Positions 6,720 to 43,186 of a stretch of 44,188 nucleotides of DNA are shown here, piece by piece; position 1 is the first letter of the stretch; each line of letters starts with the position of its first letter. The notes below the pieces were generated by a model. The model saw only the letters and a list, made by a program, of their open reading frames with translations, was not told the DNA's origin and ran no database searches. Location: assembly GCF_001650195.1 (NCBI RefSeq), contig NZ_LXYR01000044.1, positions 1 through 44,188 of the forward strand, in the 5' to 3' direction. This DNA is from Phormidesmis priestleyi BC1401 (GTDB taxonomy: Bacteria > Cyanobacteriota > Cyanobacteriia > Leptolyngbyales > Leptolyngbyaceae). The position numbers and the translations under genes are program-made.

Positions 6720-6727
6720 TTGGGCGT

Positions 6728-7434: not shown

Positions 7435-7467
7435 TGTCTTTTTCTGCTGCAATTCAAAAGGAGAAGC

Positions 7468-11585: not shown

Positions 11586-11609
11586 AGTAAGTAGCAGGAG
11601 GCACAAGCG

Positions 11610-13027: not shown

Positions 13028-13054
13028 CGATCGCATCCAATCACACCTGCCCAC

Positions 13055-15607: not shown

Positions 15608-15649
15608 AATAGAAATTGTCCCGTCCGGGCATTAGCAGGTAAATACACA

Positions 15650-17674
15650 ATGGCTATAGATGTCCTCGATCGCAAGCTCAATGATATTTACCCTGGCAGG
15701 GTCGTCCGAAAAGACTTAACGAAGCGCATCAAAGAGGGGGCTAGCGTTCCGGTTTACGTATTGGAATACCTATTAGGAATGTATTGCGCCACAGACGATG
15801 AGGCAACCATCGAAGCAGGCGTTCAAACGGTTAAGCGGATTCTTTCTGAAAACTATGTTCGTCCTGATGAGGCGGAGCAGGTTAAATCAAAAGTGCGGGA
15901 GATTGGGCGGTTCAGTGTCATCGATCGCGTGACCGTCAAACTCAATGAAAAAGCAGATATCTATCAGGGACTCTTGATGAACTTGGGAGTGAAAGGCGTT
16001 GCAATTGACGCTGATCTCGTGACCCGCAACCCCAAACTGCTGAGTGGAGGTATCTGGTGCATTCTCCAGCTTGAGTATGAAGCGGGTGCAAATCCTAGCC
16101 CATTTATTGTGGCGAGTCTAAAGCCCATTCAAATGCCCAATGTAGATATGGAGGAGTTATTTGCGGGGCGATCGGCGTTTGAGCGAGAAGAATGGATCGA
16201 TTTGCTGATTCGCTCTACGGGACTAGAACCAACCACCTTAGTAGACGAAGTAAAATGGCATCTGCTGGCGCGGATGATTCCACTGTGCGAGAACAACTAT
16301 AACTGTTGCGAATTGGGACCGCGATCGACCGGAAAGTCTCACCTCTACAAAGAGATTTCACCGAATTCGATTCTAGTCTCTGGCGGCAAAACCACGGTTG
16401 CCAACCTGTTCTACAATATGTCTTCTCGCCAGATTGGGTTGGTGGGGCTGTTTGATGTGGTCGCATTTGATGAAGTGGCAGGCATCAGCTTCCATGACAA
16501 TGACGGGATTCAGATCATGAAAGACTACATGGCATCTGGCTCCTTTGCGCGCGGCAAAGCTGAAATTAGCGCCAATGCTTCCATGGTATTCGTCGGAAAC
16601 ATCAACCAAAGCGTCGAGTCCCTAGTCAAAACCTCGCATTTGCTGGCTCCTTTTCCAGCCGCCATGATCGATACTGCCTTTTTCGATCGCTTCCACGCCT
16701 ACATTCCCGGCTGGGAAATTCCCAAATTCAGCCCTCAAAACTTCACCAATCAGTACGGCTTCATCGTAGATTACTTGGCAGAATGGCTACGAGAAATGCG
16801 AAAACGCAGCTTTGCCGATGCAATCGATCGCTACTTTCAACTGGGCAATAATCTGAAGCAGCGCGATGTGCAAGCCGTCCGCAAAACGGTGTCAGGACTG
16901 CTAAAACTGATCTTTCCCGATGGCAGCTTCACCAAACAAGATGTTGAGACGGCGCTGGTGTATGCGCTCAGAGTCAGAAGACGAGTCAAAGAACAGCTTA
17001 AAAAAATTGGTGGTATGGAATTCTATGATGTGCATTTCAGCTACATCGATATTGAAACCTTAGAAGAACATTTCGTCTCAGTGCCAGAGCAGGGCGGTTC
17101 GCATTTAATCAGCGAAGATATCCTCCCACCAGGACACCTGTATCTAATCAGCGATAGCGATAGGGGCAAAATTGGGGTCTTCAAACTGGAGCTACAGGCA
17201 GTTTTAGGCAATGGTAAACTGAACCGTGCAGGAGTCGCCAGCGCTACTGGCATGAAAGACACTATCAATATTGCCTTGAGCTACTTCAAAGCCAATGCCC
17301 ATCGGGTCAGCGGTTCAATTCATCCTGACAACTCTGACTTCCTGCTGCAACTCCTCGACCTCCAAGGATCAGGTGTGCCGACCTATAGCGGATTAGCATT
17401 GTTCATTTCGCTTTGTTCTGCGGCATTAGGGCGCGCAGTACAGCCTCAGCTTACAATTTTTGGCGAGATGACGTTAGGCGGCACTATCAATCCAGTCAGC
17501 CATCTTACAGGAAGCTTGCAGGTAGCCTTCGATGCTGGCTCTAGAAAGATCCTGCTCCCTATGACTAGCGCTGTTGATCTCCCAACGGTTCCGCCTGAGC
17601 TATTCACCAAATTCCAGACCTCGTTCTATACCGATCCAATCGACGCCGTTTTCAAAGCGCTGGCAGTGAACTAA
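15650..17674 (+). CDS. brxL: BrxL, Lon-like ATPase/protease-type BREX protein
   Basis: The 674-residue protein fits type 1 BrxL. An AAA+ P-loop variant (ELGPRSTGKSHLYKE, about residues 219-233) precedes a Walker B-like VVAFDEVAG (about 269-277). A Lon-protease-like C-terminal domain includes VPTYSGLALFISLCSAAL and FGEMTLGGTINPV. In characterised systems BrxL forms DNA-binding ring assemblies and is needed for phage restriction but not always for methylation. It is the last plus-strand BREX gene and ends 24 bases from the end of the convergent brxA. Confidence 0.94.
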   Translation: MAIDVLDRKLNDIYPGRVVRKDLTKRIKEGASVPVYVLEYLLGMYCATDDEATIEAGVQTVKRILSENYVRPDEAEQVKSKVREIGRFSVIDRVTVKLNEKADIYQGLLMNLGVKGVAIDADLVTRNPKLLSGGIWCILQLEYEAGANPSPFIVASLKPIQMPNVDMEELFAGRSAFEREEWIDLLIRSTGLEPTTLVDEVKWHLLARMIPLCENNYNCCELGPRSTGKSHLYKEISPNSILVSGGKTTVANLFYNMSSRQIGLVGLFDVVAFDEVAGISFHDNDGIQIMKDYMASGSFARGKAEISANASMVFVGNINQSVESLVKTSHLLAPFPAAMIDTAFFDRFHAYIPGWEIPKFSPQNFTNQYGFIVDYLAEWLREMRKRSFADAIDRYFQLGNNLKQRDVQAVRKTVSGLLKLIFPDGSFTKQDVETALVYALRVRRRVKEQLKKIGGMEFYDVHFSYIDIETLEEHFVSVPEQGGSHLISEDILPPGHLYLISDSDRGKIGVFKLELQAVLGNGKLNRAGVASATGMKDTINIALSYFKANAHRVSGSIHPDNSDFLLQLLDLQGSGVPTYSGLALFISLCSAALGRAVQPQLTIFGEMTLGGTINPVSHLTGSLQVAFDAGSRKILLPMTSAVDLPTVPPELFTKFQTSFYTDPIDAVFKALAVN

Positions 17675-21910: not shown

Positions 21911-24480
21911 TTAATGTACTTCACTAGGCAGAAGCAGATTAACCTCAACCTTTTCCTGCACAGATGGAGTGATAAACTGTGCACGCTTCATACAGTCTAG
22001 TAGCAAGAGATTAGCGTCATAATATTTCCTTAAAACATCTTTATTCACCTCATCTAACAATTGCGGAAATCGAAGCAATGTTTCGTTATTTGTGTTTGTA
22101 GAGTCAAAGAATTGCAGTTCGTCCAACAATTTTGCTGCCCACCTTCCTCCGTCTTGCCGCCACCAACTCATAAACAAATTTTGCTGAGGCGGGAATACAA
22201 CGCTATCAAGTTGAAGCAATAACTCTTTGATGGATAAAAGGGCAGGTAGAATTGTATCGACTAATCTTGTATGGTAGAAGCGCGCAAACGCCATGATGTC
22301 ATTCGCCAATTTTTCAGTTGAAACCAGACTCAGCGCGTTGCACATACGTTGATACAAAAGATTAAAATCTGACAGATCTTGCGCGAACTCTTCATCAAGG
22401 CCCATCGTTTGTGCCAGCGGAATTGCCTGATAATCCTTAGTTGCTTGCCCACTCTTGCGAAATGACTCAACTCCCTCATCAAAATTGCAGCCCGCTAGGG
22501 ATAAGTACCAAGCTCGCAGTGCTGATAGCTTATAAGGCAGTTTCTCGGCAGTCTTGATTGCCTTAGTATTGGACCAGGTTAGCAGTTGCTGTAATTCACT
22601 CTGATTAGCGAAGGTAGTGTGAAGTTGCTGCTCCATTTGACGAATCATGTCATCTGCGGAGAGCTGCATCTCGGCCACAAGCAAAAACACTTCTCGCCAC
22701 TGGGAATTGCATATTTGCGGTAGCAAAATCTGCCATGCCTGCTCTAGGTGAATTGACCGAGCCACGAAGTACTCATGGAATGTTAGGTGGGAAAAAGAGT
22801 AGATGTAAATCGCCCGCTCCGCTAGCAACCCATGATGTGCCGCGATCGCCTTGATGATTGCCTTGCCCTCTTCCTGTAGCCGAATTAAGCTAGACGCAGC
22901 AAGATTGGATTGTCGTAGGTATCGCGCTACAACTTCTTGAGCAAGTTGCTGGTTGAAAAAAGTTGGGACTGCTCAAACGTGACTCGTGCCAGTTGAAGTA
23001 GCAGTTCCACTTTATGGGCTTTCCCTAAGTTGCGATAAATCTCATCACGATGGACATTTCGGTGCAAATCCCACTTCTCTAAGAGTGCATCGATACCCTG
23101 TTCATATAACTGATGCTGCGTTTTAGGCAAAGCCTTCATATCGCGAAACACAATGCAAATTAAGTTTAGTAGTAACGGTGTAACGGCTAATTCTCGAATT
23201 GCTCGATGCTGCGGCTGATTGAGTGCTTCAATTAGAGCTTCGCTCGGGTTAGGTTCTGCTTGTGATTGATCTTTCAGTAGCGCTTTAAACCAGAGTTGAA
23301 TGAAAGATTCAGCTTGCTCTCGGCTAAAATCAGCAACTTCAATCTCAACAAATTTCTCTCCAGAAAATTCGTACTTGTTAGCTGCAACACGGCAGGTAAT
23401 TAAGAAGGAATTATCAGCATATTGGTTAATGAACTGCCTAATTTGCAGCACAACTAGCTCATTGCTTGACGCTGACACTTCATCTAAACCGTCTAGACAA
23501 ATTAGTGCTTTCCCGGATTCTAAAATCGCCTGAACCGATTCCTTAGACACACCCCACTGAACTAGCGTTGAGCAAATAAAACTGAACAGCTCGTTTTCGC
23601 TTGAACCTTGCTGGACTACTCTTGCAAAATAAGACAGTTGAATGAAGATAGGAATCTTATCTGGCTGAAATCTGCCTTCGATGCACTGCACCACCAGGTA
23701 TAGCAAGTAGGTCGTTTTCCCAATGCCAGGTTTTCCTAAAACCATCAGCCGTTGAAGGTTTTCTGCTAAATCCCAACCAGAATGACGCAGCGGCTCTTGT
23801 CCTTCTAAGCCCAAGCGATCAAGGTGTTTCACAGCGACAGGAGATTGGAGAAGTGCAAATAGTGATCGCCAGCGGCGATTGACAATCTCTCGCCAAACAT
23901 CTGTGCCCGTGTAAATGGCTTCCACATCTACGAGTTCTGGAATACCGAAAACGCGAATTCTGCCGTACTCCTGGTGAATTCTTTCGTACAGTTGCTGGCG
24001 AACTTGCTGAACTTGTGCCTCGATTCCTGAAACTGGTTGACCTTGAGCCAATGAACCTTGCGCCTCTACCAATGACCGCACGTGCTTGAGATTCATGGAG
24101 CGGTTTTTTGATAGCAGCTTCAAGTGGAGAAGTTTTCCAGGAACGCGCGGCAAATTATGAATGCCGTCATCGTCATCGTCGGGCACTAACACCTTGATTT
24201 CTTTAAGCCTTTCCAGCAGGTACCCGAGATCGCGTTTTGTGCGTTTGATCTTCCTGCCTTTTTCTTGCTCGCAAAACAGGATAAAAAGCTGATTTAGATC
24301 TTGATGAGTTGTCTGAATTCGCAAACAAAACCCGTTAGAGGACTGCGCCACCCACTCAAACTCGATCGCATAGGGTGAATCCTCTCTATTCTCAAGCTTT
24401 CGATCAGCCCAAGTTAGAAGTGCATCTACTAGGTCAAAGACCTGCTGTTGAGTTTCGGGTCGCCAGCCTGAAAGTCCCAT
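21911..24480 (-). pseudogene. NACHT NTPase (bNACHT-like), one-base frameshift
   Basis: The first frame (24480-22927, 517 residues) has an N-terminal helical/acidic region and then the NACHT domain: P-loop GKPGIGKTTYLL (about residue 245), Walker B LICLDGLDEV (about residue 323), and the LAVTPLLLNLICIVF segment. It stops just after FEQSQLF. The second frame continues from there through AHHGLLAERAIYIYSFSHLTFHEYFVARS, the expected end of the NACHT module, and then a helical C-terminal sensor-like region. Adding one T to the six-T run at 22956-22961 (A-run on the plus strand) restores one protein of about 856 residues. Bacterial NACHT proteins include anti-phage NLR-like proteins. A homopolymer sequencing error, slippage or a true knock-out are all possible. 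Confidence 0.8.
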
Positions 24481-29585: not shown

Positions 29586-29870
29586 TCAGTCTTCCGATTC
29601 TTCTGAGCGCTGCCATTGTTCAAGAAGGGGCTGCATCCGGTCGGCATTGGTTAATAAGAAATCTGCCACTGCCAAAATGCGCTGGTATGCAATTCCTGGG
29701 ATGCGACGACTAGTACGCCCAACCAACCAGTGGCTCGCACTTGATCTCGATACTCCACAGATTGCCGCGATCGCCGCCGCATCCATTCCCCAGCGAAAAC
29801 TAAAGGTCTCAGGAGATAAAAGCATCCTGTTGTGCAATTCGAGCACGCGCTGTCGGTTGAGGCTAGTCAT
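29586..29870 (-). CDS. Small helix-turn-helix protein
   Basis: The 94-residue product has a helix-turn-helix centre: MDAAAIAAICGVSRSSASHWLVGRTSRRIPG (about residues 29-59) places GVSRSSASHW where XRE-type turns and recognition helices lie. A helical tail follows. It is probably a DNA-binding regulator. Its start overlaps the stop of the 102-residue gene upstream by four bases, so the two are co-translated. The downstream neighbour is the interrupted gene at 28861-29490. Confidence 0.7.
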   Translation of the reverse strand: MTSLNRQRVLELHNRMLLSPETFSFRWGMDAAAIAAICGVSRSSASHWLVGRTSRRIPGIAYQRILAVADFLLTNADRMQPLLEQWQRSEESED

Positions 29871-30175
29871 GATATATAGCCTTCTGACTGGTTAGGCAAT
29901 CGCCCCATTGGTTCCAAATCCGCTTCAAATGCGAAGTCGTGACAGCAAAAGCTGCGGGAAGGACTCTGCTCGTCAAGCAAAATTAAGTAGTGTAGCCCAG
30001 TCACCTGGTGGGTCGCTTCATGGCTGTAAACCACGCCAATCACATGACCGAAATCTGGCTCAACGTTCATTCGCCAACAAACGGTTTCTCCGAGTCGAAA
30101 TTTTGGTTGAGGCACAAGCGATGGAATTTTTTCGGGCAGAACGATCGGCGGGAGTGGCGGCAGAGAATTTGGCAT
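29867..30175 (-). CDS. Hypothetical protein
   Basis: The 102-residue product has a Pro-rich start (PPLPPIVLPEKIPSLVPQP) and a beta-rich centre (FRLGETVCWRMNV, FGHVIGVVYSHEA, GLHYLILLDEQ) like small SH3- or Tudor-type barrels. No named family is recognised. It is coupled to the downstream HTH gene (ATGA overlap) and divergent from the CopG-like gene at 30272, with 96 bases between them for both promoters. Confidence 0.6.
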   Translation of the reverse strand: MPNSLPPLPPIVLPEKIPSLVPQPKFRLGETVCWRMNVEPDFGHVIGVVYSHEATHQVTGLHYLILLDEQSPSRSFCCHDFAFEADLEPMGRLPNQSEGYIS

Positions 30176-30614: not shown

Positions 30615-30830
30615 ATGTGGACTGGGGAATCGCTTCGGAACAGACGCTTAGAACTTGGGGTCACTCAACGGCGATTGGCAATCGCTCTAGACGTGACGGA
30701 GACGACCGTGAGGAATTGGGAGTCTAGCAAACACATTCCAAGCCTTACGCCTCGGCAGACCCAAACCATGTGCCGAATTCTGCAACTCTCACTCGATGAG
30801 TTTGCAGAATTCGAGCATTTGGCAAGCTAA
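30615..30830 (+). CDS. XRE-type helix-turn-helix regulator
   Basis: The 71-residue product is a single HTH_3 domain: LRNRRLELGVTQRRLAIALDVTETTVRNWESSKHIPSLTP, with the TQRRLAIALDVTETTVRNWE helix-turn-helix. The ATG at 30615 is preferred; a GTG at 30594 would add seven residues outside the domain. It lies 551 bases upstream of the replication gene and may control it. Confidence 0.8.
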   Translation: MWTGESLRNRRLELGVTQRRLAIALDVTETTVRNWESSKHIPSLTPRQTQTMCRILQLSLDEFAEFEHLAS

Positions 30831-31381
30831 GTTGAGGTTTTGAGATTTTCTCCACCAACCAGCGAGAGTTGATAGAGTAAGTTGACCTAAATCAGATGCC
30901 AAACCTTGATAAACCTTACTGAACCCGGTGCATCTGATGCTAAAAAGGCTTTCCTACTTGTAATGAAAGAGGTGCGTCCTATGTTCTAGATAGTCTAGAA
31001 GCCAAAAACCCCAACTGGAAGAACAGTAAGGGGTTCAGGGCTTGTTATTCAATTGATTGGATGGAGCGTGGTAACGCTAACTAATGCTTTGGCGGGCTGA
31101 CGTTAGGTTACTGAGCTTTGCTATGGCAATTGTAGTGCCAATTTGTCGAGAGATGCAACACTCTTAACAAATTGCACAGTTTTTGCGCGGCTCTCTATCC
31201 CTTCAAACTTCCGCAGAGAGCAGTTTTCAGAGTTTTCTGCCTTCACGCTTTCTGCTCGCCGTTTGTTAACGCGGCAGAGAAATTACACCAACTCTCTCCG
31301 ACTCGGTGGTACTTCCCACTGCTTCCGGTCAGTCTTGTCGTTTTTCTCTGTCTCTTTACCCCCTACGGGACAGAGCTATTC
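30831..31381. other. Repeat-rich region upstream of the replication gene (origin candidate)
   Basis: No gene is supported in these 551 bases. They contain a 9-bp inverted repeat (ATCAGATGC 30891-30899, GCATCTGAT 30930-30938) enclosing two tandem AAACCTT words 10 bases apart (30901, 30911). There is also a 17-bp palindrome TTCTAGA-TAG-TCTAGAA (30984-31000) and an AACCCC/GGGGTT stem (31007-31012/31030-31035). Such clustering directly before a replication gene is typical of plasmid origins and copy-control RNA regions, but no iteron array is present. Confidence 0.4.
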
Positions 31382-34300
31382 ATGCTGACACCGCAACACC
31401 TACAAGAATTCCAAGCCAGTGCGATCGCCCCCTCGCTAGCAGACCTCAACTTTCACTCCACTGACGACAACTGGTTCATTCGGCAGTGGATTAACTGGAA
31501 GTCCGAACAGAAATGGAAACAGTGCCCCTTCTCGTCTGGCTGGTACTGCCACACCCTCGACCCACAGACCGGAGAACCCCGTAACTGGGGTCCATTCAAG
31601 CCGGACGACCCGTTAATTGACACGAATAAAGGCAAACCTCGAAAGTACGAACATCCCGCTGGCTACGAAACTCTATCCATTCTTCTGGATGTTGATCGCA
31701 CCACCTGGGAGGCGATCGCCCGTCGCTACCGCGTTCCCATCACTTCCCTAATGCTGCGACTGCGGGATCGTAACCCTTATCCGCACTTCTGGGAATGGGT
31801 CTGGACGTACAACCTCCCGATCATCATTTGTGAAGGTGCGAAAAAAGCTGCTGCGTTGCTGAGTGCTGGCTATGTGGCGATCGCGCTGCCTGGAGTTTGG
31901 AATGGACGCAAGAAACGTCAAGGAAATCAGCCAGAGCGTCTTATTCCTGACCTACAGCACTTTGCCACTTTGGGTCGGGAGATTTACTTCTGCTTCGACC
32001 ACGACCCCAACCTCAAAACTCGTCAGCACGTCAGCAACGCCCTTGTTCGCACGGGCAAGCTATTCGAGCAGGCAGATTGCACCGTCAAAGTCATCCGACT
32101 ACCCGGACCTGAAAAGGGTGTGGATGACTTCATCGTTGCCAGAGGCGCAGAATCGTTTGACCAGCTCTACCTAGATGCCGCTTCGCTGCAATCCTACGAG
32201 CGTCATCGGCAGCATTGGCTTATGGGGCATACCCTGACCTATCCGATCGCCATCGATCTTGACCAGCAGTATTTACTACAATCTCCCCGATCGTCTCCCA
32301 GTCAGCTCACCCAACCGCTGCCAGATTCGGGTGTGATTGCCGTGCTTTCAGATATGGGCACGGGCAAGACCGAATTACTCAAGCAAATTAAACAGAGCCA
32401 TCCCCATGCCCGCATTCTCAACCTTGGACATCGGATTGCCCTACTGCGAAACCTGGCAACTCGTATTGGCACTGCGATCTATTCTGACCACGGCTGGAAT
32501 ATGTGGCGTGAGCAGTGGCTGTCGCTTACCGCTGATTCTCTCCACAAACTCAAGACGGAAGGCAATACCTATGACTTTATTTTTCTGGATGAATGCGAAC
32601 AGTTCATTCAGCACCTGCTGTGTTCTTCAACCTGCAAAGAGCATCGCCATTCTATTCTGCAATCCCTCAAACACTTTATCTATTCCGCCAAGTGCGTGGT
32701 GCTGAGCGACGCGCACTTATCCGATGTCTCACTGAAATTCATTTTGGCGATGCGACCCGATCCCACCGAGTTGCCGTTTGTGATTCGCAACCGCTACCAG
32801 AATGGCGATCGCCGCGTCTTCTGGTATGAAGGCAACGATCGCTCTGGCATCGTGCGCCAAATTAAAGCCTCGCTGTTTTTGGGCGATCGCGTCGTAGTTG
32901 CCTGCGATGGATTGGAGTTCTCCAAAGACCTCTATGAAACCCTGCAAACCCTGTTTCCAGAGAAACGGATTATCTGCATCAACTCAGAAAACTCAAACGA
33001 GCCAGGGATGCGATCGCTGATTGAGAACGTCAATGCTCCCGGAAAGCTCGATGGCATTGACTGCCTGATCTACTCGCCCTCAGTTAACACTGGCGTGAGC
33101 ATCGACACCCCTCACTTCGACAAAGTGTTTGGGGTTTTTGTCGGGGGTTCGCTAGCTGGAACGGACTGCATTCAGGCACTCAACCGCTACCGCCCCAAAG
33201 TGAACTGGCATGTCTGGGTCGGTTCTAATCCGATCGGGGGATACCGCCCCACTAGTGCGGAGCGAATCAAACGCAACAAACTTCAGGAAAATGACCTGTG
33301 CGGCTTTTTACTCAAGATTATTCCCGGCAGTGGGGAGAAGACGATCGCCGATGAGTTTGCTTGGAATGCGTGGGCAGCGGTTCAAGCCCGCCGCAATGAT
33401 TCTCTCAACAACCTGCGGGGCGATGTGCGCTATTTGATTGAAGCCCAGGGGCATTACCTGATTCCGTTGGGTGAAGAAACTGATTGGGAAACGAAGGAGG
33501 AGTTGAAGGCGGCTCGCGAGGTCAACCAGCAGACTCGCAGCCGGGGTATTTGCAGTGCTGAAAAGATTTCTCCGTCTGAAGCCCGACGGTTGGAATCGAA
33601 GGAACGTCCCACGCAGGATGACTGGTACAAGCTAGAGCGGCACCGCATTGAAACTTCTTGGGGCAGAGTAGTGGACACAGATCTAATTGACCTCGACAAA
33701 CGCGGACGCACGATTCGCCAGTTCACGCTGCTCGAAGCACTGCTCGAAGCGCCATCTGAAGTAGACAATATCAGCGGCAAACGTATTCTCTTTCCGCCAG
33801 CACTTGTAACAGCCAAAGACCTGGGTGAACGAGAGAAGTTTCACCCCTTGGACTGGCGCAACGATTCGGTGGCTTGGGCACTGCGTCGGGAGTTAGGACT
33901 GCACCGCTTCGTTGACCCGGAGCGAGAGTTTCGCAATGATGATCGCGATTTGTTGGAGCTGGAGAAGCAAGCCCAACGGAACGTGCTGATCATCAAAGAC
34001 TTTCTTGGCACTACCATTCGCCGCAATGCTACTCCGATCCAGATCTTACAGCAGTTGTTGGATCAGATCGGACTGCGACTGGTGTGCGACAGGCGTGAAG
34101 GTGCGCGCGGCGAACAGGTGCGCGTGTATCGCCTCGGTCTGGAGCAATGGACAGTTGCCCAGGAGGTTCTCGCATACCGTCGATCTAAGCATCAGACTCA
34201 AGCCCAGCCAGAGGTGGAAGCTGTTTCTACTGTGGTAGTCACAGGGGGCGATTTTGATCAGAATATAAATAAAGGGGGGGCAGTGACTACCGAGAGCCGG

Positions 34301-34621
34301 GAGCAAGGTTTGACCCCTGAAGCGTTGGCGGATGGGTTGGCATTTTTGTCTCAGGCACTGGCGGCAGGGAAGCGAGAACGGGTGCAATCGCTCTGGAAGA
34401 CTTGGAATTCATTGGAGCGTTCTGCTTTGCTAGTATCTATGCCTAATACGGTGCGACAGCGATTAACCAAATGCTTGGGCATTGTGCCAGGGGCGATCGT
34501 TCGGTGGTGGGGCAAAGCTGGAGAATGGGTCGTGGATTTTGTAGAAGCGGAGTCCGTTCGGTTATTGCGGAGTGGAGTCTCTAACCAAATCTGGTTAGCG
34601 GAACTGGCGGACTTGTGTTGA
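31382..34621 (+). CDS. CyRepA1-like plasmid replication protein (primase/helicase)
   Basis: The product has about 1079 residues from the ATG at 31382. The frame is open upstream to 31172, but the extra 70 residues look non-coding. The N-terminal third is a DUF3854/TOPRIM-type primase region (WTYNLPIIICEGAKKAAALLSAGY, then GREIYFCFDHDPN). A helicase follows: P-loop LSDMGTGKTELLKQI (about residues 320-334) and Walker B FIFLDECEQF (about 397-406). A segment with DCLIYSPSVNTGVSID is similar to motif V-type origin-binding helicases. The C-terminus is basic. This layout matches the large replication proteins of cyanobacterial plasmids. It marks the window as plasmid. Confidence 0.85.
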   Translation: MLTPQHLQEFQASAIAPSLADLNFHSTDDNWFIRQWINWKSEQKWKQCPFSSGWYCHTLDPQTGEPRNWGPFKPDDPLIDTNKGKPRKYEHPAGYETLSILLDVDRTTWEAIARRYRVPITSLMLRLRDRNPYPHFWEWVWTYNLPIIICEGAKKAAALLSAGYVAIALPGVWNGRKKRQGNQPERLIPDLQHFATLGREIYFCFDHDPNLKTRQHVSNALVRTGKLFEQADCTVKVIRLPGPEKGVDDFIVARGAESFDQLYLDAASLQSYERHRQHWLMGHTLTYPIAIDLDQQYLLQSPRSSPSQLTQPLPDSGVIAVLSDMGTGKTELLKQIKQSHPHARILNLGHRIALLRNLATRIGTAIYSDHGWNMWREQWLSLTADSLHKLKTEGNTYDFIFLDECEQFIQHLLCSSTCKEHRHSILQSLKHFIYSAKCVVLSDAHLSDVSLKFILAMRPDPTELPFVIRNRYQNGDRRVFWYEGNDRSGIVRQIKASLFLGDRVVVACDGLEFSKDLYETLQTLFPEKRIICINSENSNEPGMRSLIENVNAPGKLDGIDCLIYSPSVNTGVSIDTPHFDKVFGVFVGGSLAGTDCIQALNRYRPKVNWHVWVGSNPIGGYRPTSAERIKRNKLQENDLCGFLLKIIPGSGEKTIADEFAWNAWAAVQARRNDSLNNLRGDVRYLIEAQGHYLIPLGEETDWETKEELKAAREVNQQTRSRGICSAEKISPSEARRLESKERPTQDDWYKLERHRIETSWGRVVDTDLIDLDKRGRTIRQFTLLEALLEAPSEVDNISGKRILFPPALVTAKDLGEREKFHPLDWRNDSVAWALRRELGLHRFVDPEREFRNDDRDLLELEKQAQRNVLIIKDFLGTTIRRNATPIQILQQLLDQIGLRLVCDRREGARGEQVRVYRLGLEQWTVAQEVLAYRRSKHQTQAQPEVEAVSTVVVTGGDFDQNINKGGAVTTESREQGLTPEALADGLAFLSQALAAGKRERVQSLWKTWNSLERSALLVSMPNTVRQRLTKCLGIVPGAIVRWWGKAGEWVVDFVEAESVRLLRSGVSNQIWLAELADLC

Positions 34622-35219: not shown

Positions 35220-35560
35220 TGGCTCCCCCAATCCTCAATCAAACCCATGTCCTAAGCTATCTGGCTACAGCTATACATCGGTCACAGTTGCCGAGAATGA
35301 GACTGTCCATGACACTCTCTTTGTGCTGGAAGAGTGGTGAATCCCAAAGTTAGCTTTAGTAACTTTCACGATCAACGAGGACAGATTGCTCAGATGTGCC
35401 GTGAACGATCGATTCGATTGGGGGTGGAAACAATGTATCCCTCCCCCTCGACTCGACTTCATCCACAACTGCCCCCGCGTCCATCCCCTTGAGCCAAGAC
35501 TATCACCTGCACAATCACCAGACCCTGACTGCGGTAACCTTGGAATCGAGCTAACTCCTC
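35220..35560. other. Intergenic stretch, no gene supported
   Basis: Overlapping open frames here (35271-35468 minus, 35386-35634 plus) show no protein-like pattern; the second runs into the start of the next gene in another frame. A C-rich tract (CCCCCTCGACTCGACTTC, from about 35441) has no palindromic partner. Confidence 0.45.
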
Positions 35561-35890
35561 ATGCCCCTTTTTCTAATCACCACTTTATACGACGAAGGCA
35601 TCTCCCCCAATCTGGTACGAGTCGTCGAAGCTGAATCAGCCTTAGCCGTCGCCGCGCATATGCTGCACTACTCAGACTCGTGGGGCTATTTCCTCTACCG
35701 TTCCTTTGGGCAAGATCTGCCGCTCGGTATCCTCACTCCAGAAGAACTTCTAGAACGTATCCAACATACCTCGGTCGATGGCGACTCGACGGCTCAACTC
35801 CGCATCACGCCGCTGGTCGTGCAGTCGCTTGATTTGATCGTCACCACTCCTGCTTTCCAGCCCGGTGCTCTGTTCTCTGACTTTGGCTAA
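35561..35890 (+). CDS. Hypothetical protein
   Basis: The 109-residue product begins MPLFLITTLYDEGISPNLVRVVEAESALAVAAHML, a beta-alpha start seen in many small cyanobacterial plasmid proteins. I recognise no domain. It ends two bases before the start of the 191-residue PD-(D/E)XK-like gene, so they are probably one transcription and translation unit. Confidence 0.65.
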   Translation: MPLFLITTLYDEGISPNLVRVVEAESALAVAAHMLHYSDSWGYFLYRSFGQDLPLGILTPEELLERIQHTSVDGDSTAQLRITPLVVQSLDLIVTTPAFQPGALFSDFG

Positions 35891-35892
35891 TC

Positions 35893-36468
35893 ATGAACGT
35901 CAAACTCCTCCCTCTAATTCAACAGCAGTTTGGGTTGCAGCTGATTGAAACCGAATCGCCTCTGGTAAAACCTCGACCCTTCAGCCCGTCGTCAGGGCGG
36001 AGATCTCTAGTAGAGCAGGGAGTCGAGATGGTCTTCCCCCACAGCAATGAGCGAACACGCTCAGAGTGCATTGTGGCTCAGGTGATGATCGGGATTGCCC
36101 TCGCCCATCCCGTCAGCTACTTCTCTGGCTATCCTTTCGAGGTCGATCCGGCTCTGGGGCTGGTCGGTCAATGTGACTACTTGTTCAGCCGTTCACCCTT
36201 GACGTTCCGCATCCATCCCCCAGTGGCACTAATTGTGGAAGTCAAGCGTGATTTGGGGCGCTGTCTCCCTCATTGCCTGGTGGAACTCGCCGCTGCTCAA
36301 AGGTTCAACGGCTTAACGGCTCCGATCTACGGGGTTCTGACGACCGGGTTAGCGTGGCAGTTTCTCAAGCTAGAGGGCGAGATTGTCACGGTTGAGTCAA
36401 CCATTTACAAGGTCGAATCCCTCGCCCGCATTGAGTCCATTCTGGCTGCCATGGTGGGCGAACCCTAA
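35893..36468 (+). CDS. PD-(D/E)XK-like protein of unknown role
   Basis: The 191-residue product has a nuclease-fold signature. Glu in RTRSECIVAQVMIGIAL lies on the first helix, Asp in GLVGQCDYLFSR on a strand, and ALIVEVKRDLG supplies the ExK motif, followed by a helix with a conserved Gln (LAAAQRFNGL). Spacing fits PD-(D/E)XK nucleases such as Uma2- or restriction-type folds. The target is unknown. It follows the 109-residue gene by two bases. Confidence 0.65.
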   Translation: MNVKLLPLIQQQFGLQLIETESPLVKPRPFSPSSGRRSLVEQGVEMVFPHSNERTRSECIVAQVMIGIALAHPVSYFSGYPFEVDPALGLVGQCDYLFSRSPLTFRIHPPVALIVEVKRDLGRCLPHCLVELAAAQRFNGLTAPIYGVLTTGLAWQFLKLEGEIVTVESTIYKVESLARIESILAAMVGEP

Positions 36469-36644: not shown

Positions 36645-37052
36645 ATGATGTTCAACCCCTCAAAACCCATTGGTGAATGTTCCGCTCAAGAGCTTGCCGC
36701 CGCTATTTTGCTCAACGCGGGAGTCAGTCGCTTTAATCCTCAGCAGGTGCTTGCAGATCTAACCGCTCACCGTCATCTGTGGCGTACCTTCCTGATGGGA
36801 CTGCCCATCTCACCCTGCCCAGAGCACGAGCTACTCCGAGGAGTCCTACTACCATTGCGGGATCTCGAAGGCCACTGGAATCTAGACACGCTGTACGTCT
36901 TAGCCCGTAGCGATGAGTGCGTTGCTCCCTTAATCGCCCTCGGTGCGGAGTGGGGCGGTGAGACCGGGCAGGTCTACAACCCGGAGCAAGCAGGGCGGTT
37001 GATGAGCCGCTTTCACGACCCCCAACCTGTCGTCTGGTTTTGGTGGGATTGA
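36645..37052 (+). CDS. Hypothetical protein
   Basis: The 135-residue product is not recognised. Its N-terminal half is helical (SAQELAAAILLNAGVSRFNPQQVLADLTAHRHLWRTFLMG) and it ends with a Trp cluster (VVWFWWD). The ATG at 36645 or the next codon at 36648 may serve as start. The next gene begins 46 bases after its stop with a strong ribosome-binding site. Confidence 0.6.
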   Translation: MMFNPSKPIGECSAQELAAAILLNAGVSRFNPQQVLADLTAHRHLWRTFLMGLPISPCPEHELLRGVLLPLRDLEGHWNLDTLYVLARSDECVAPLIALGAEWGGETGQVYNPEQAGRLMSRFHDPQPVVWFWWD

Positions 37053-37606: not shown

Positions 37607-38347
37607 ATGACTCCCTTGAACACCCAACTTGCAGCTTATCAAACTCTACTTCAGCAGCAACGGGAGCAAGTGACTCCTGCCCTTGGGCAACTCCATCAGC
37701 AGATCAGTCAGCAACTAGGAGCCTTGCAGCAGCAAGAGCAAGCCCTACTCGATGCCCAAGCATTCGCCCTTGAACCCCTGCGATCAGTGATTTCAGCCGA
37801 TGCCCGTTGTTTGTTGCCCACTGATTCCTTTGGGCAAGCCCTACTGATCATGCTAGAAGAGCGTCGGGTCTATGGAATGATGGCGCTGCGTTCCCTCACT
37901 TTGGAGGTCGATCCCACAAATTGGCTCTTGGGAACTCTGCCCGTACCCCTGGAAATTTTGACTTACGAAACGCTTCGCGATGACGGGGCTTACAACGATG
38001 AGAACTACTACACCGACTACCGCTACCACTTGATGGCGCGATTAGGAATCTGGCAGAAAACCCTGGAGATCTCAACCGCCAGTCTCCATCCTGGTAACCC
38101 GATGAGCTACTACATCAGGAACCTGTCCAGTCAGCATCATGATGTGGTGTATCGGATGTTGGGAGAAGAGTACAACCGTCCTGAACCGATGCCTCAACCC
38201 GCCTTTCCTGATCTGCTATTGAGTGACGAACAAGCTCTGCAACTGAAGCAAGAATTGAGCTGTGTGCTTGCTTTTGTAGGTAGCTTGTTTAACATCCAGT
38301 CTCGCGTTGAACACTTTCGTTACCCCCAGCAACGCTCTGGCGAATGA
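37607..38347 (+). CDS. Uncharacterised coiled-coil-start protein, module copy A
   Basis: The 246-residue protein has a Gln-rich coiled-coil N-terminus (MTPLNTQLAAYQTLLQQQREQVTPALGQLHQQISQQL...) and a mixed alpha/beta remainder with a Tyr-rich segment (DENYYTDYRYHLM). It is homologous at its start and overall plan to the broken gene at 40106-40781 and to the relic at 41578. In each place it sits directly before or after a TIM-barrel gene, so the two proteins probably work together. The function is unknown; I recognise no catalytic motif. Confidence 0.7.
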   Translation: MTPLNTQLAAYQTLLQQQREQVTPALGQLHQQISQQLGALQQQEQALLDAQAFALEPLRSVISADARCLLPTDSFGQALLIMLEERRVYGMMALRSLTLEVDPTNWLLGTLPVPLEILTYETLRDDGAYNDENYYTDYRYHLMARLGIWQKTLEISTASLHPGNPMSYYIRNLSSQHHDVVYRMLGEEYNRPEPMPQPAFPDLLLSDEQALQLKQELSCVLAFVGSLFNIQSRVEHFRYPQQRSGE

Positions 38348-38359
38348 GGAGAGACTCCA

Positions 38360-38737
38360 ATGGAAATTGTTCAACCGACCAAAATCAACCGCACACCTCT
38401 GTACTTGAGCCTGTCTAGCTGTGGCGGGATAAGTACCGAGGAAGCCCTTGAAACTTGCGCCGCCACAGGAATTCACCACGTCGAACTGGCGATCGGGGTC
38501 AAACGAGACGGAAACGTCAGTGCTGCTCTTGAGAAGTGGCAGGCTCAAGGGATGCAGTTTCGCGCTCACCATGCCTTCGTCTGGGACACCCATCGCCCCT
38601 TTAGTTTGGCAGCTTCTTTTGATGTTGATTACTTCAGTCGGTTAACGGACTGTTTAGCGAGGCACCAGATTACGGGCGCTCTTTTCAACTCTGCCTTGAC
38701 GGTGCCTGACGCGATCGCTCCAGCAGTTCATTTCTGA
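38360..38737 (+). pseudogene. Truncated AP-endonuclease-2-like TIM-barrel protein (module copy A)
   Basis: The first 100 residues or so align with the intact 267-residue paralogue at 40778: LYLSLSSCGGISTEEALE, HHVELAIGVKRDG, QGMQFRAHHAFVWDTHRPFSLAASFDVDYFSRLTD. After the DCLARHQIT segment it diverges into an unrelated 20-residue tail and stops at 125 residues, losing most metal ligands. It follows copy A of the coiled-coil protein by 12 bases with a GAGGAGA ribosome-binding site, so it may still be translated. Confidence 0.75.
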
Positions 38738-38748
38738 GGTAAAACGCC

Positions 38749-39105
38749 ATGATGTTCCGTTTCTTCCTGCCAGACTTTGAGTTTAAACTTGACGAGTGGC
38801 AACAACACTTAAATGCTGGAGAAGCCACGCTCACAGAGGTGCTGCAAGCCTTGCTGGATCATATTCAGCCGATCGTTCAGCCAGAACTGTTTGCAGAGTT
38901 CCCCGCAGAATCGGGCGAACCCGAAGGCGAGGAACCCGAAGGCGAGGAGGTTTCCTTGGCGCTCATGGCGTATCTCACTCGTGTCACAGCCATTGCCACT
39001 CGGTTAGACCAGATGGACAAGCGCTTGAACCGCATCGAAAAGGGGATTGCCCGCATCGAACAGCGAGGAGGGGATGCGTCACCCGCTCAAAAAGTGGAAG
39101 ATTAG
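38749..39105 (+). CDS. Hypothetical protein with GEEPE repeat
   Basis: The 118-residue product has an N-terminal FFLPDFEFKLDEWQQHLN segment. An acidic linker is made by a 15-bp tandem DNA repeat (GAACCCGAAGGCGAG, about 38928-38957). It ends in a C-terminal coiled coil (RLDQMDKRLNRIEKGIARIEQR). A decayed copy of its C-terminal part is at 42219-42346. The coiled coil suggests an oligomerising partner for the upstream proteins, from which it is separated by only 11 bases. Confidence 0.6.
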   Translation: MMFRFFLPDFEFKLDEWQQHLNAGEATLTEVLQALLDHIQPIVQPELFAEFPAESGEPEGEEPEGEEVSLALMAYLTRVTAIATRLDQMDKRLNRIEKGIARIEQRGGDASPAQKVED

Positions 39106-39212
39106 ACCCAAATCCCACGGCAGCAGTCTTGCAAGTAGCGCCGCCTTCGATCTCGCCACTAACAGCAGGTGGGGAGTGCAGTAACGATGAGAGAACTTGT
39201 GAATTGAGCAGT

Positions 39213-39485
39213 ATGGAACCCATGCAATCATCTCCTAACGAAGAGGTCGAACCCCAAGGTTTACCGCCAATCGTGCAACTGAAACAGCAGCTCAGGCAGA
39301 TTCTAGACCAACAACAACAGAATGCCGCTCAAGAGTTGTAGCGACCCGGCGCAGAGTGGGGTCTCAATCCTGACTACTATCCTCAGAAAGCCGCTCATCA
39401 GGCGGCGGATCAAGCTTTGCTTGACTTCATTGCTGACCCAGAAGTGACGCACCTGCTTGCGGCGATCGAGAAATACTACACCTAA
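39213..39485 (+). pseudogene. Small hypothetical protein with one in-frame TAG
   Basis: Translation from the ATG at 39213 gives 42 codons to a TAG at 39339-39341. The same frame then continues for 47 codons (RPGAEWGLNPDYYPQKAAHQAADQALLDF...) to a TAA at 39483. The second half has good protein-like composition. It is probably a gene with a recent nonsense mutation. I do not recognise the family. Confidence 0.55.
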
Positions 39486-39521
39486 TTGCAGCGATCCGAA
39501 TTAATCGAGCACGAGGAACCG

Positions 39522-40004
39522 ATGGGCTACTGTATTCAATACCACTGGCATACTCTACGTATTCCAGCCGAGCAGGTTTCAGCAGCTTTAGCCGCAATCC
39601 ACAGCCTGTATCAGCCCGCCGTGATGGCGCAACGGGGAACCGCAAGCCGCTACGACCCACAAACCCAGCGCACCCTCAGAGAGTACCGGGCAAGCCCTTT
39701 GCCACCGGGTGGGTTTACAGACTTGATTGCAGCCCTCCAAGCTTGGGCGTTTGCAGCCGAACAGCAGGCAGATGGCAGCCTTGAAATCACTGCCTTCCTG
39801 GGAGACAAGGTTGGGGATGAAGCCGTTTTGTTTGAGGCGCTCGCCCCCTTCCTAGACGCTTCGTTGCACCCTGTCATCGAAGCAAGACAGGACAACGACG
39901 AGGTTTGGCGACACACTTTCTGCAATGGAGAGCATCGGCGAGTGCCGGGTAAGGTCGTTTACGCGGACAACTATCCAGAGTTATTTCGGGCAGACCTGGC
40001 ATGA
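39522..40004 (+). CDS. Hypothetical protein
   Basis: The product is 160 residues from the ATG at 39522 (MGYCIQYHWHTLRIPAEQV), preceded by CGAGGAA; a TTG at 39486 would extend it without adding a recognisable feature. It is alpha/beta with AALAAIHSLY and FTDLIAALQAWAF helices and a C-terminal HTFCNGEHRRVPGKVVYAD segment. No family is recognised. It lies between the two copies of the coiled-coil/TIM-barrel module. Confidence 0.65.
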   Translation: MGYCIQYHWHTLRIPAEQVSAALAAIHSLYQPAVMAQRGTASRYDPQTQRTLREYRASPLPPGGFTDLIAALQAWAFAAEQQADGSLEITAFLGDKVGDEAVLFEALAPFLDASLHPVIEARQDNDEVWRHTFCNGEHRRVPGKVVYADNYPELFRADLA

Positions 40005-40105
40005 GGTCGATTTCATCTCGTTCAGCTCTGCACGAACCGATTGATTCTCCACCGAAGATTAGTGATACATTTGAACTAAATTATTTGTGCTTGAGGTGAT
40101 TGCCC

Positions 40106-40781
40106 ATGACCCAACTCCATTTTCTGACCGAGTATCAATCGCTCGTGCAGCAACATCAAGCGCAGTTTACCCCAGCCCTCGATCACCTCCAGGCGACGGT
40201 GAACGAGACGTTGACCCAACTGCGGCAGCAGGAACGATCGCTCGTGGAGGCTCAAATTCAGCAGCTAGCACAGCTCAAAGCGCAGTTGGCGCTCGGCTGA
40301 ATTACAAGCTTTTGTTGCCGAAGTTCAGGCAACTCCACCGCTTCAGCGTTGGAATCAAAGGGAACCCGCTCCTGAACTGGATGCGAATCCGGTCACTTGG
40401 CAGTTAGCCCAAACTGACCTTCCTCTCGCCGTTCATGGCTATGAATCGACGGTTGACCACGATGCTTATGATGATGAGCGCACGCATTCTGCTTATGGAT
40501 ATGGCGTGACCATCCAGGTTGGAGACCAGAGCCGCCGCCTCGAAGTCCTGACTCAGCGGATTTATTCACCCGTTAGTCATCAATCCTACAGCCTACGGCA
40601 GGAACTTCATTATGACTTTGAAGATGCGGTGATGGAGATGCTGCCGCAACAAGACATCGCAGCATCCCAGGGACAATTGGCACTCGAAATTGGCTATCTG
40701 CTAGGTTGTGCTGCCCGCTTACTCTCACTCACGCCACGAACTCTACAGTTTCAGTATTCCAGTGAAGAGGTGGCAGGATGA
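40106..40781 (+). pseudogene. Coiled-coil-start protein, module copy B, frameshifted
   Basis: The ATG at 40106 (after GAGGTGA) opens a frame for a coiled-coil N-terminus (MTQLHFLTEYQSLVQQHQAQF) like copy A. The frame stops at 40298-40300. The frame starting at 40290 then remains open without a stop to 40781 and ends in LALEIGYLLGCAARLLSLT, matching the C-terminal plan of copy A (LKQELSCVLAFVGSLFNIQ). A single indel between about 40280 and 40297 explains this. Its stop overlaps the TIM-barrel gene start (ATGA). Confidence 0.75.
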
Positions 40782-41581
40782 ATCAACTTTGGGTCAGCTT
40801 ATCCACTTATGGAGGAGTCACAACGCGAGAAGCGTTAGACGTGTTCTGGGCAGCCGGGATTCGTCACGTTGAATTAGCGATCGGGGTTAAACCGAGTCCA
40901 GATACCGTGGAAGTGCTGCGGCACTATCAGCAACAGGGGATGCAGTATCGTGCCCATCACGCGCTCGTTTGGGCAGAAGGGCGATCGTTCAACTTGGCTC
41001 ACAATTTTGATGCCCGATACTTTGAACGGTTGACTGATTGGTTGGTTACGATAGGCATTACCGCCTATTCTGTTCATGGAGGCAGCTATTTCCCAGGTGA
41101 TGATCCAACTGCCGCCTATATGCGCTTTCTGAATCATCTAGATCAACTGGAGCAATTGTGTCGCGATCGTGGGATTCGCCTGGGTGTGGAGACGATGTAT
41201 CCTGCCCTGTCAGACGACACCAGCCAGTATTTGCTACAAAATGCCACCCAGATTGAGCAATTGTTGTACGATTTGCCCGACATCCACTTGGTTGTAGACA
41301 TGGCGCACCTCAATATCTGGAAAACGGAAACTATTTCAGAGAAGCTGCATCTGCTTGAGCTGGCTAACAACCGCCTGCTGGAAATTCATCTCTCTGACAA
41401 CGACGGTTATTGGGATAGCCATACAACCATTACCGATCAGACTTGGTGGCTCCCCTATATCGCAAACTTTCCGCCCCATCTCCCGATCGTGCTGGAAAGC
41501 CGGATGAACCGTCAGACTATCCGGCGAGTCCAGTCTCAAGTTGCAGCGGTTCAAGCCTTAATCGAGAGGACACACCAATGA
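40778..41581 (+). CDS. AP-endonuclease-2-like / sugar-isomerase TIM-barrel protein
   Basis: The 267-residue protein has the AP_endonuc_2 (xylose isomerase-like) pattern with likely metal ligands in order: H60/H61 (RAHHAL), H100 (YSVHGGSYFPG), E138 (LGVETMYP), D174 and H177 (VVDMAHLNIW), H204 (LEIHLSDNDG), H215 and E240 (PIVLESR). It could be an endonuclease IV-type DNA-repair enzyme or a sugar isomerase; the residues do not decide. It is translationally coupled (ATGA) to copy B of the coiled-coil gene upstream and to a relic of a third copy downstream. Confidence 0.85.
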   Translation: MNQLWVSLSTYGGVTTREALDVFWAAGIRHVELAIGVKPSPDTVEVLRHYQQQGMQYRAHHALVWAEGRSFNLAHNFDARYFERLTDWLVTIGITAYSVHGGSYFPGDDPTAAYMRFLNHLDQLEQLCRDRGIRLGVETMYPALSDDTSQYLLQNATQIEQLLYDLPDIHLVVDMAHLNIWKTETISEKLHLLELANNRLLEIHLSDNDGYWDSHTTITDQTWWLPYIANFPPHLPIVLESRMNRQTIRRVQSQVAAVQALIERTHQ

Positions 41582-41655
41582 CCCAAATAGAGGCACAACT
41601 TGCCACCTAAGAAAATCTGCGACAGCAGCAATTTGAGCAGATGGACGGAGCATGA
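41578..41655 (+). pseudogene. Relic start of a third coiled-coil gene copy
   Basis: The ATG overlapping the TIM-barrel stop begins MTQIEAQLAT, then a TAA, then ENLRQQQFEQM in the same frame. This follows the N-termini of copies A and B (MTPLNTQLAAYQTLLQQQREQ, MTQLHFLTEYQ). The homology ends at about 41655. Confidence 0.65.
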
Positions 41656-42388
41656 CAATGCTTGCATGATTGGATTGGCTCACAATTTGGACCAGCGGGC
41701 GCATTTGAACAGAAAGTTACGGTTTTGGCTAGAATCCTTATCCCGCAATACTTTCATCTCCCATAAAGGCAATAGCTAGAAAAACGACCGTTTTCTTTGT
41801 GCCGAGTTTTTTGACGCTATGAGGTCTTGATCAGCACAAGAAAACTCACCAAGCAAGCAAAATCAGGTTGAATGGTCAGTTCTAAGTTTACTGACACATC
41901 GAAACCGTAATTTTCTGCATGGATGCGCCTGCTAGTCCAGTTGGGTTTGGAACTGGAGGCGGAGGGCGTGCTGGGTAGTGGCTGCTTTTGCCAGCGCCGC
42001 TTCGTCGGGGGAGAGGGTGATGGTGCGTCGCTCTACATGATCTCAATCGCCATTGGGGTGCGCTCGAAACAGGCTTCTTCACACCCTAAGCTTTGCGGCT
42101 TTCTACAAGCAAGTGATCCCTGTCAGCGTGACAGCGGAACTGATCTGGACAGCATTGCTAGCGTCTTAACTCGGTGCTTGACAAGCGGTTCCATACAACA
42201 GGTCAACGGTTCAACAGCCCTTGCCACTCGGTTAGACCAGATGGACAACCGCTTGAACCGAATCGAAAAGGCGAATCGAAAAAGGGATTGCCCGACTCGA
42301 ACAGCAATGGGGTGATGCGCCACCTGCTCAACGAGCAGCAGACTAGACTCAAAGAGTTCATACCCTTCACCCTTTTCAGGAGGCTTTT
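41582..42388. other. Decayed region between module and ADP-ribosylglycohydrolase
   Basis: No intact gene lies in these 807 bases. It contains the third-copy relic at its start and a C-terminal relic of the 118-residue gene near its end. A minus-strand stretch around 41930-42035 reads RRTITLSPDEAALAKAATTQ and ends in a stop, like the tail of a lost gene. Confidence 0.55.
42219..42346 (+). pseudogene. Relic of the 118-residue gene C-terminus
   Basis: The DNA at 42221-42250 (ATRLDQMD coding) matches about 38991-39020 almost base for base and continues through a diverged end to a TAG at 42346. It carries a 14-base internal duplication (CGAATCGAAAA twice) that breaks the frame. Confidence 0.75.
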
Positions 42389-43186
42389 GTGCTAGGCGCA
42401 GTTGTAGGTGACGTCGTGGGTTCTATTTACGAAAGGCACAACCTCAAAACCAAAGACTTTCCCCTTCTAAGTCCCGGCTCTCGGTTCACGGATGATACCG
42501 TGCTGACGATCGCCTGTGCAGATGTCTTGCTCAACCATGACTCCGGGGGGAACCTGCCCAGCAACCACGACTACGCCAGCAGCTTTAGAGACTACTACCG
42601 CCGTTACCCAAACGCAGGCTACGGTCGCAGTTTCGCAAATTGGGCAGCCTCTGATCTCGCCCCTGCTTACAACAGTTGGGGAAATGGTTCAGCGATGCGA
42701 GTCAGTCCGATCGGCTTTGCCTTTAACGATTTAGAGCAGGTGCTAACCGAAGCGAAGCGGAGTGCAGCAGTGACGCACAACCATCCTTTAGGCATCAAAG
42801 GTGCTCAAGCGACAGCCTCCGCAATCTTTCTAGCGCGAACGGGGCACGACAAAGCGGCAATCAAATCCTATGTGGAAACCACCTTTGACTATGACCTGAC
42901 GCGAACGCTTGCAGACATTCGACCGAGCTATCGCTTTGAGGTATCTTGTCAAGGTTCCGTGCCCCAGGCGATCGTTGCCTTTCTCGAATCCACGGATTTT
43001 GAGGATGCGATTCGCAACGCCATCTCGATTGGAGGGGATAGTGACACAATTGCTTGCATGGCTGGAGGCATCGCTCAAGCTTTTTATGGCGGGGTGCCAG
43101 ACGTGCTCTCGCAGCCAGTTATCGCCTTGCTTCCCGCGTCGTTCCAGGAAGTCCTGCAAGCGTTCACTGCCCGATACCCTGCCTGA
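42389..43186 (+). CDS. ADP-ribosylglycohydrolase family protein
   Basis: The 265-residue enzyme has the DraG/ARH signature: GAVVGDVVGSIYE at the start, the metal-binding FTDDTVLT box (residues 33-40) and the C-terminal GGDSDTIACMAGGIA box (about 214-228) that completes the two-Mg2+ site. It removes ADP-ribose from proteins or nucleic acids. The start is GTG at 42389, preceded by CAGGAGG. No ADP-ribosyltransferase is seen in the window. It may reverse toxin- or phage-linked ADP-ribosylation; this is inferred. Confidence 0.92.
   Translation: MLGAVVGDVVGSIYERHNLKTKDFPLLSPGSRFTDDTVLTIACADVLLNHDSGGNLPSNHDYASSFRDYYRRYPNAGYGRSFANWAASDLAPAYNSWGNGSAMRVSPIGFAFNDLEQVLTEAKRSAAVTHNHPLGIKGAQATASAIFLARTGHDKAAIKSYVETTFDYDLTRTLADIRPSYRFEVSCQGSVPQAIVAFLESTDFEDAIRNAISIGGDSDTIACMAGGIAQAFYGGVPDVLSQPVIALLPASFQEVLQAFTARYPA

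Follow-up and report, generated by a model that had tools for sequence, protein, structure and literature searches.

Layout of the coiled-coil and barrel genes

The window analysed here is a stretch of 44,188 nucleotides that makes up a whole contig (C44) of the 5.55-Mb genome of the cyanobacterium Phormidesmis priestleyi BC1401, which is assembled in 213 contigs. Towards its end lie genes and gene remnants of two families, one encoding proteins that start with a coiled coil (CC) and the other encoding TIM-barrel proteins of the Pfam family PF01261 (TIM). Comparison with related loci indicates that CC and TIM are very probably the two halves of one unit. The copies present in the window are as follows:

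37607-38347, +: CC-A, an intact coiled-coil gene of the A-type clade, 246 amino acids (CC profile, tree and AlphaFold model)
38360-38737, +: TIM-A′, a truncated barrel gene in which homology is confined to 38399-38674 (columns 3-95 of a profile of about 270)
40106-40781, +: CC-B, a broken coiled-coil gene of the B-type clade, with an N-terminal piece at 40106-40300 and a C-terminal piece in another frame from 40293
40778-41581, +: TIM-B, an intact PF01261 TIM-barrel gene, 267 amino acids, with an ATGA overlap with CC-B
41578-41652, +: a coiled-coil stub (copy C), 25 codons long and interrupted by a stop at codon 11, which most resembles the starts of A-type coiled-coil genes
35337-35453, +: a third barrel relic in an advanced state of decay (columns 108-146 of the profile, 29 bits; 'IRLGVETMYP' in one frame)

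All five genes and remnants described in the initial annotation, from the intact CC-A to the stub, were found in place. So were the ATGA couplings of copy B, where the CC-B stop overlaps the TIM-B start (40778-40781) and the TIM-B stop overlaps the start of the stub (41578-41581). Two further open frames (38749-39105 and 39522-40004) separate copy A from copy B, and the arrangement is that of two modules about 1.4 kb apart rather than a strict head-to-tail array. A scan for promoters and terminators yielded signals no commoner than in shuffled sequence. We also observed a repeat, part of a small gene: the stretch at 38986-39112 behind TIM-A′ recurs behind the stub at 42214-42353 in two pieces (93% and 79%), and an ADP-ribosylglycohydrolase gene (PF03747, 1.4e-41; 42389-43186) lies just past it.

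TIM-A′ matched the barrel profile with an E value of 1.1e-32 in the columns given above and nowhere else. CC-B matched the CC profile in two frames, over columns 6-63 (3.3e-11) and 72-230 (2.2e-34), but lacks the conserved segment in between; our reading of these matches is that the gene was broken by an internal deletion with a frameshift. We think an assembly error an unlikely cause of the break, given that several codons are missing and a conserved motif has gone with them. When the stub was aligned start to start with CC-A, 12 of its 25 positions were identical and none of 20,000 stub shuffles scored as high; its highest scores were obtained against A-type starts (48 for CC-A itself and 42 for the gene at locus L048). 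CC matches in the host genome are confined to this contig.

Co-occurrence of the two families

A neighbourhood survey revealed that the barrel, far from rarely co-occurring with CC elsewhere, is tightly associated with it. Barrel genes covering more than 200 profile columns were treated as full-length, and counts were made over non-duplicate loci (the duplicates L089, L091, L093 and L094 were dropped). A CC gene was found within 400 bp and on the same strand for 21 of 21 full-length barrel genes, all of which were matched by the barrel-based search; the next commonest neighbour family, K09, occurs within 3 kb of six of them. A profile scan of genome contigs with the barrel alignment alone (A1) gave 17 loci, each with CC upstream on the same strand (the barrels of L090 and L091 and the CC gene of L085 are incomplete), while a single-protein query of the same contigs gave no loci. 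All three plasmid records that carry the barrel also carry CC. Among barrel fragments, six of 10 have CC within 400 bp, three of the six being pieces of one decayed gene (L063). Some loci share neighbours, so that their contexts are partly dependent (L075/L077, L078/L081, L082/L084/L086 and L045/L088).

Among 386 genomes across the phylum, with scoring limited to the first 6-7 candidates in each, the barrel was found in two, the host genome included, and CC was found in the same two. Among 291 relatives, CC is present in 21 genomes and the barrel in eight, which identifies CC as the wider family. The two genes lie side by side in six of these eight genomes (G000, G006, G033, G057, G233 and G227); G186 holds a barrel fragment without CC, and the distant barrel of G134 (27% identity) falls outside the adjacency reading. 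A further barrel fragment, in G587, is outside the locus counts.

At 15 of the 21 full-length barrels the CC stop overlaps the TIM start, by one base in 11 cases and by four bases in four, while the remaining six have gaps of 5-148 bp. Distances between barrels closely follow those between the adjacent CC proteins (Mantel r 0.96 over 20 loci, with 0 of 2000 permutations as high). Of 16 comparisons, 12 gave a ratio of non-synonymous to synonymous substitution rates (dN/dS) of 0.13-0.28; the remaining four, between closely similar genes with few changes, gave 0.37, 0.46, 0.89 and an undefined value. The selected two-protein function proposed in the initial annotation is supported by the adjacency, the correlated distances and these ratios. 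Its placement of that function on plasmids was too narrow, as the pair is also found at loci on chromosomes or on 3.9-5.7 Mb contigs. Every full-length barrel adjoins CC, and we conclude from sequence comparison that CC and TIM very probably constitute a real two-protein unit; the reverse fails, CC being the wider family. Among the papers listed in our literature searches, none describes this pair.

Relationships of the intact and broken copies

A tree built from 60 CC sequences places the C-terminal piece of CC-B with barrel-linked B-type genes and CC-A with A-type genes of Leptolyngbya sp. NIES-3755 and G006, the two being separated by a starred branch (95/93); several long branches were flagged by the tool, and the root serves for drawing only. 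TIM-A′ is 54% identical to TIM-B and 53-54% identical to the barrels of two other genomes. The idea that the locus arose by recent tandem duplication is contradicted by these results, as CC-A and CC-B belong to separate old clades and TIM-A′ is no closer to TIM-B than to barrels from elsewhere.

The NIES-3755 plasmid carries a B-type CC, TIM and an A-type CC in that order, with 4-base overlaps around the barrel, and the window has the same order in CC-B, TIM-B and the stub. In the NIES-3755 plasmid, a transposase-like gene (by eye) splits the B-type CC, leaving the barrel and the A-type CC intact. In G006 an A-type CC precedes the barrel. For the host's own family (f1), TIM and the A-type CC are thus intact in three of three genomes with TIM, while the B-type CC is broken in two and was not found in the third. 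It may be that the A-type CC has taken over as the barrel's partner, since the B-type gene is broken differently in the two plasmids and the A-type gene stands before the barrel in G006; the inference draws on three loci. The notion of one intact pair in sum gains some support from the same two relatives, and the working unit of this plasmid is most likely CC-A with TIM-B, CC-B having been lost. Between the window and NIES-3755, the proportions of non-synonymous and synonymous differences (pN and pS) are 0.25 and 0.68 for the barrel and 0.37 and 0.83 for CC-A. The broken CC-B piece gave 0.36 and 0.70, with pS near saturation, at which old selection and recent loss are indistinguishable. Beyond its barrel module, plasmid3 of NIES-3755 has another three CC genes (L044:10870-11532, 23408-24040 and 30772-31380), the last in two pieces.

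The barrel enzyme

TIM-B matches PF01261 (AP_endonuc_2) above the curated cut-off (1.2e-12; 48.5 bits against 31.1), and the family was matched by all 18 barrel members at E up to 1. The predicted structure of TIM-B (mean predicted local distance difference test score, pLDDT, 87.7) is nearest in fold to the D-tagatose 3-epimerase-like protein 3wqo (VIA Z 23.7, root-mean-square deviation 2.7, 244 residues aligned). The best 50 VIA rows comprise epimerases, isomerases and uncharacterised relatives with identities of at most 18%, and the best sequence-profile matches of the barrel in the PDB are D-tagatose 3-epimerases (1.2e-4). Chains of endonuclease IV come further down in the Foldseek ranking, at places 25 and 27.

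Residues H60, H61, H100, E138, D174, H177, H204, D209, D213, H215 and E240 are invariant in 18 of 18 barrel members. We compared them with the nine metal ligands of E. coli endonuclease IV (Nfo), whose numbers we take to be those given here, the residue letters being confirmed in the alignment. Six of the nine align in all six alignments made (MAFFT in three modes, run with a single relative or with all of them), H100 with Nfo H109 and further barrel residues with Nfo E145, D179, H182, H216 and E261, whereas Nfo H69, D229 and H231 align in none. A near-full endonuclease IV site, with eight of nine ligands including D229 and H231, had appeared in the first alignment and was discarded when D229 and H231 were lost in the three MAFFT modes. 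The E. coli proteins UlaE, Hyi and YcjR have no histidine at the H100 position; YcjR has D-x-H where the barrel has D213-x-H215. Sugar epimerases and isomerases use two catalytic glutamates. E138 aligns with a glutamate of UlaE, Hyi and YcjR in six of six alignments each, and E240 with one of YcjR in five of six, UlaE in two and Hyi in one. Profile-profile comparisons against individual E. coli proteins gave matches too weak to be informative (21 columns for Nfo; E 0.018 for UlaE).

At E up to 1, TIM-B had no match in NCBIfam, the endonuclease IV model TIGR00587 included. Endonuclease IV itself (TIGR00587) was found in none of 29 cyanobacterial genomes (G000 and 28 relatives), with 10 of 14 controls positive, six of them above the cut-off. 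The MNIO model PF05114 matched none of the 18 barrel members at E up to 1, in a search whose HMMER filters drop weak matches, and MNIO structures were not among the fold matches listed, which does not exclude an MNIO; according to a passage in PMC12452194, MNIOs frequently work with partner proteins. From its sequence the barrel is very probably a metal-dependent enzyme. Its chemistry could be epimerase-like or endonuclease-like, and an endonuclease-IV-like metal site is possible.

The coiled-coil protein and its other gene neighbours

The AlphaFold model of CC-A (mean pLDDT 87.1) has a 63-residue N-terminal helix followed by an alpha/beta domain that contains three long strands as well as more helices. 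We found no credible match for CC in Pfam or PHROGs, and no credible PDB sequence match (best 0.57). In searches of solved and viral structures no fold scored under 0.001 in Foldseek and the best VIA Z was 4.5, which is not proof of a new fold. Single matches, such as those to EXOC6_Sec15_N (0.0013) and Cas12d (6.5e-5), in one of 29 members each, look like coiled-coil noise.

Where no barrel is present, CC genes often lie behind a small F02/F01 gene pair with a GmrSD_N nuclease gene, or else stand on both sides of a gene of the K06 family (CC-K06-CC). Within 1.5 kb of 48 CC loci we counted the barrel at 24, GmrSD at seven, K06 at seven and none of these at 11, one locus having both barrel and GmrSD. 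The four duplicate loci named above were left out of this count too. The sample is biased, some of its loci having been collected through TIM searches and others through CC searches, and in L060 and L097 the K06 gene is too distant for the 1.5-kb limit. One GmrSD family member matches PF03235 at 4e-24. K06 is a conserved 310-residue family with invariant DVD and YxTxNGLR motifs (nine members aligned), found at L048:8212-9162 and also at L049, L050, L051, L053, L060, L096, L097 and L099, and standing between two CC genes in three genomes. The L048 member has no credible Pfam, PHROGs or PADLOC match; its motifs presumably recall the active sites of primase-polymerases (AEP).

Wider context of the window

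With a protein that clusters with CyRepA1 and two ParB-like genes, the contig looks like a plasmid. Further features of the window are:

31172-34621: a protein clustering with the CyRepA1-family replication protein of plasmid pNSMS102
19600-20532 and 26691-27644: two ParB-like genes (identity by eye)
35561-35890, +: a gene of family F27, in the CC/TIM neighbourhood
35893-36468, +: F28, a PD-(D/E)XK-like nuclease gene (PADLOC PD_DExK, 5.8e-31), also on the NIES-3755 plasmid
36645-37052, +: a gene of family F03, also on the NIES-3755 plasmid and at other coiled-coil loci

Families F06, F27, F28 and F03 are common to the window and NIES-3755 near the CC/TIM genes. In other genomes a domain similar to F27 (by eye) is fused to the N-terminus of CC proteins of about 364 residues; in the window it is a separate gene. 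BREX genes occupy 2581-17674 (+), encoding BrxB, BrxC, an Eco57I-type methylase in the place of PglX, a DUF4058 protein, PglZ and BrxL, and a NACHT protein with an EAD4 effector-associated domain is encoded at 22927-24480 (-). The F01/F02 pair, a small helix-turn-helix (HTH) gene and an SH3-like gene, is present at 29586-30175 (-) with no GmrSD-CC or K06 partner adjoining, unlike loci elsewhere. Among the Nostocales pairs, a cytosine methylase adjoins TIM in L078 and L081, and type III restriction genes lie about 2 kb from TIM in L085.

Proposed role of the pair

The explanation that we favour, with a probability of roughly 0.45, is that the CC/TIM pair is a mobile two-protein unit whose likeliest role is that of a genome-conflict cassette. 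That the two genes form one mobile unit is suggested by their adjacency, correlated divergence and purifying selection, together with their patchy spread and their occurrence at unrelated sites. As to what it does, our best guess, offered tentatively, is a role in conflict or defence against phages or rival mobile DNA. CC would be the dedicated partner of TIM and would use its long N-terminal helix to hold or control the enzyme, TIM being a presumed metal-dependent enzyme of the AP_endonuc_2/sugar-epimerase superfamily. On sensing an invader, CC would cause TIM to act, either on nucleic acid or on some metabolite (a nucleotide or a sugar), and the same CC family may serve the GmrSD-type nuclease and the 310-residue K06 protein likewise. 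The context is consistent with conflict: GmrSD or K06 beside CC, the methylase and type III restriction genes near TIM, and BREX and NACHT-EAD4 on the plasmid.

Several observations weigh against this explanation. The closest folds to TIM are sugar epimerases and isomerases, for which a nucleic acid substrate is not required. In PADLOC-DB 2.0.0, the barrel matched the candidate model PDC-M70B alone (11 of 18 members, best 3.8e-10), and across 29 members CC had a few weak, scattered matches, to PDC-M04A in three (best 7.3e-4), to Cas12d in one and to five other models in one each. Searches of viral contigs with the barrel and of phage records with CC found no relatives. Several pairs (L075, L077 and L092) sit amid genes that look like housekeeping genes by eye, and the neighbour-context counts are raw, made without a random-locus control. 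Four of the 10 barrel fragments lack CC in the 400 bp on either side (L066, L065, L076:5433 and the relic at 35337 in the window). The loss of the B-type CC is not general either, an intact one being present in Leptolyngbyaceae MP9P1.79 (G057/L091, family f17).

A metabolic unit, in which TIM is a sugar or sugar-phosphate epimerase or isomerase with CC as its accessory or oligomerising subunit, and an optional metabolic trait spreads as a cassette, strikes us as rather unlikely. The fold and profile matches to epimerases and isomerases favour it, as does the presence of E138, D174, H204 and E240 in every barrel member, but no sugar gene was seen among the families recurring within 3 kb (named by eye), CC also adjoins a GmrSD-type nuclease, and the distribution of the cassette is patchy, with decay in place.

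It is less likely again that TIM serves in DNA repair or processing as an endonuclease-IV-like nuclease recruited to DNA by CC. The stable alignment of H100 and five further positions with Nfo ligands, where the three E. coli relatives have no histidine at H100, speaks for such a nuclease, and so does the absence of endonuclease IV itself from the 29 related genomes. Set against this are the three unaligned Nfo ligands, the D-x-H of YcjR, the lack of a match to the Nfo family model and the patchiness of the pair, as repair genes are rarely so patchy.

A toxin-antitoxin or plasmid-addiction pair would account for two overlapping, mobile genes with broken copies, but we consider it improbable: TIM-B is intact beside the broken CC-B (though CC-A may cover for it), there is no credible match to a Pfam or PADLOC toxin family, and pairs of this kind do not usually consist of two proteins as large as these. 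Least probable is an MNIO-like enzyme (formerly DUF692) that modifies a protein or peptide. An enzyme-partner pair with a barrel fold that we take to be related would be fitting, but PF05114 failed to match and no small precursor gene recurs among the open frames called, which were of 60 residues or more.

If the genome-conflict explanation is followed further, the CC family could be the common platform of undescribed, partner-swapping mobile conflict systems in cyanobacteria, a speculative extension that we think less likely than not. One or two CC proteins, from two old clades whose genes are adjacent in several loci, would then serve TIM, a GmrSD-type nuclease or K06, with the small HTH and SH3-like genes as companions common to the systems. 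One partner family would in that case tie several orphan enzymes to one biology. To our knowledge, few defence systems have been tested in cyanobacteria, and a pair of only two genes is a small and concrete target for phage challenge and biochemical tests there.

Comparison with known systems

With the PF01261 (AP_endonuc_2) family and 3wqo, TIM shares the barrel fold and four putative metal ligands that are invariant in all 18 members, and it passes the family cut-off. It differs in its low identity (at most 18% in the best 50 rows), in the CC gene beside every full-length barrel and in the invariant H100, which is lacking in the three E. coli epimerases and isomerases compared. Endonuclease IV belongs to the same superfamily, and six of its nine metal ligands align stably with the barrel, whereas three do not and the barrel has no TIGR00587 match; Nfo is not known to need a partner protein.

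Pairs of MNIO/DUF692 enzymes likewise combine a presumably related barrel with a partner protein, but belong to another Pfam family, and no precursor gene was seen at the CC/TIM loci. PADLOC PDC-M70B resembles TIM (residues 149-261 of TIM-B), whereas no PDC-M70 model matches any of the 29 CC members, and no system in PADLOC-DB 2.0.0 has models matching both CC and TIM; no paper naming PDC-M70B was found in the literature. GmrSD is a type IV restriction system. GmrSD-type nucleases (PF03235) share with TIM a neighbour from the CC family, and in some loci also F01, F02 and F06, but the enzyme placed beside CC is a different one.

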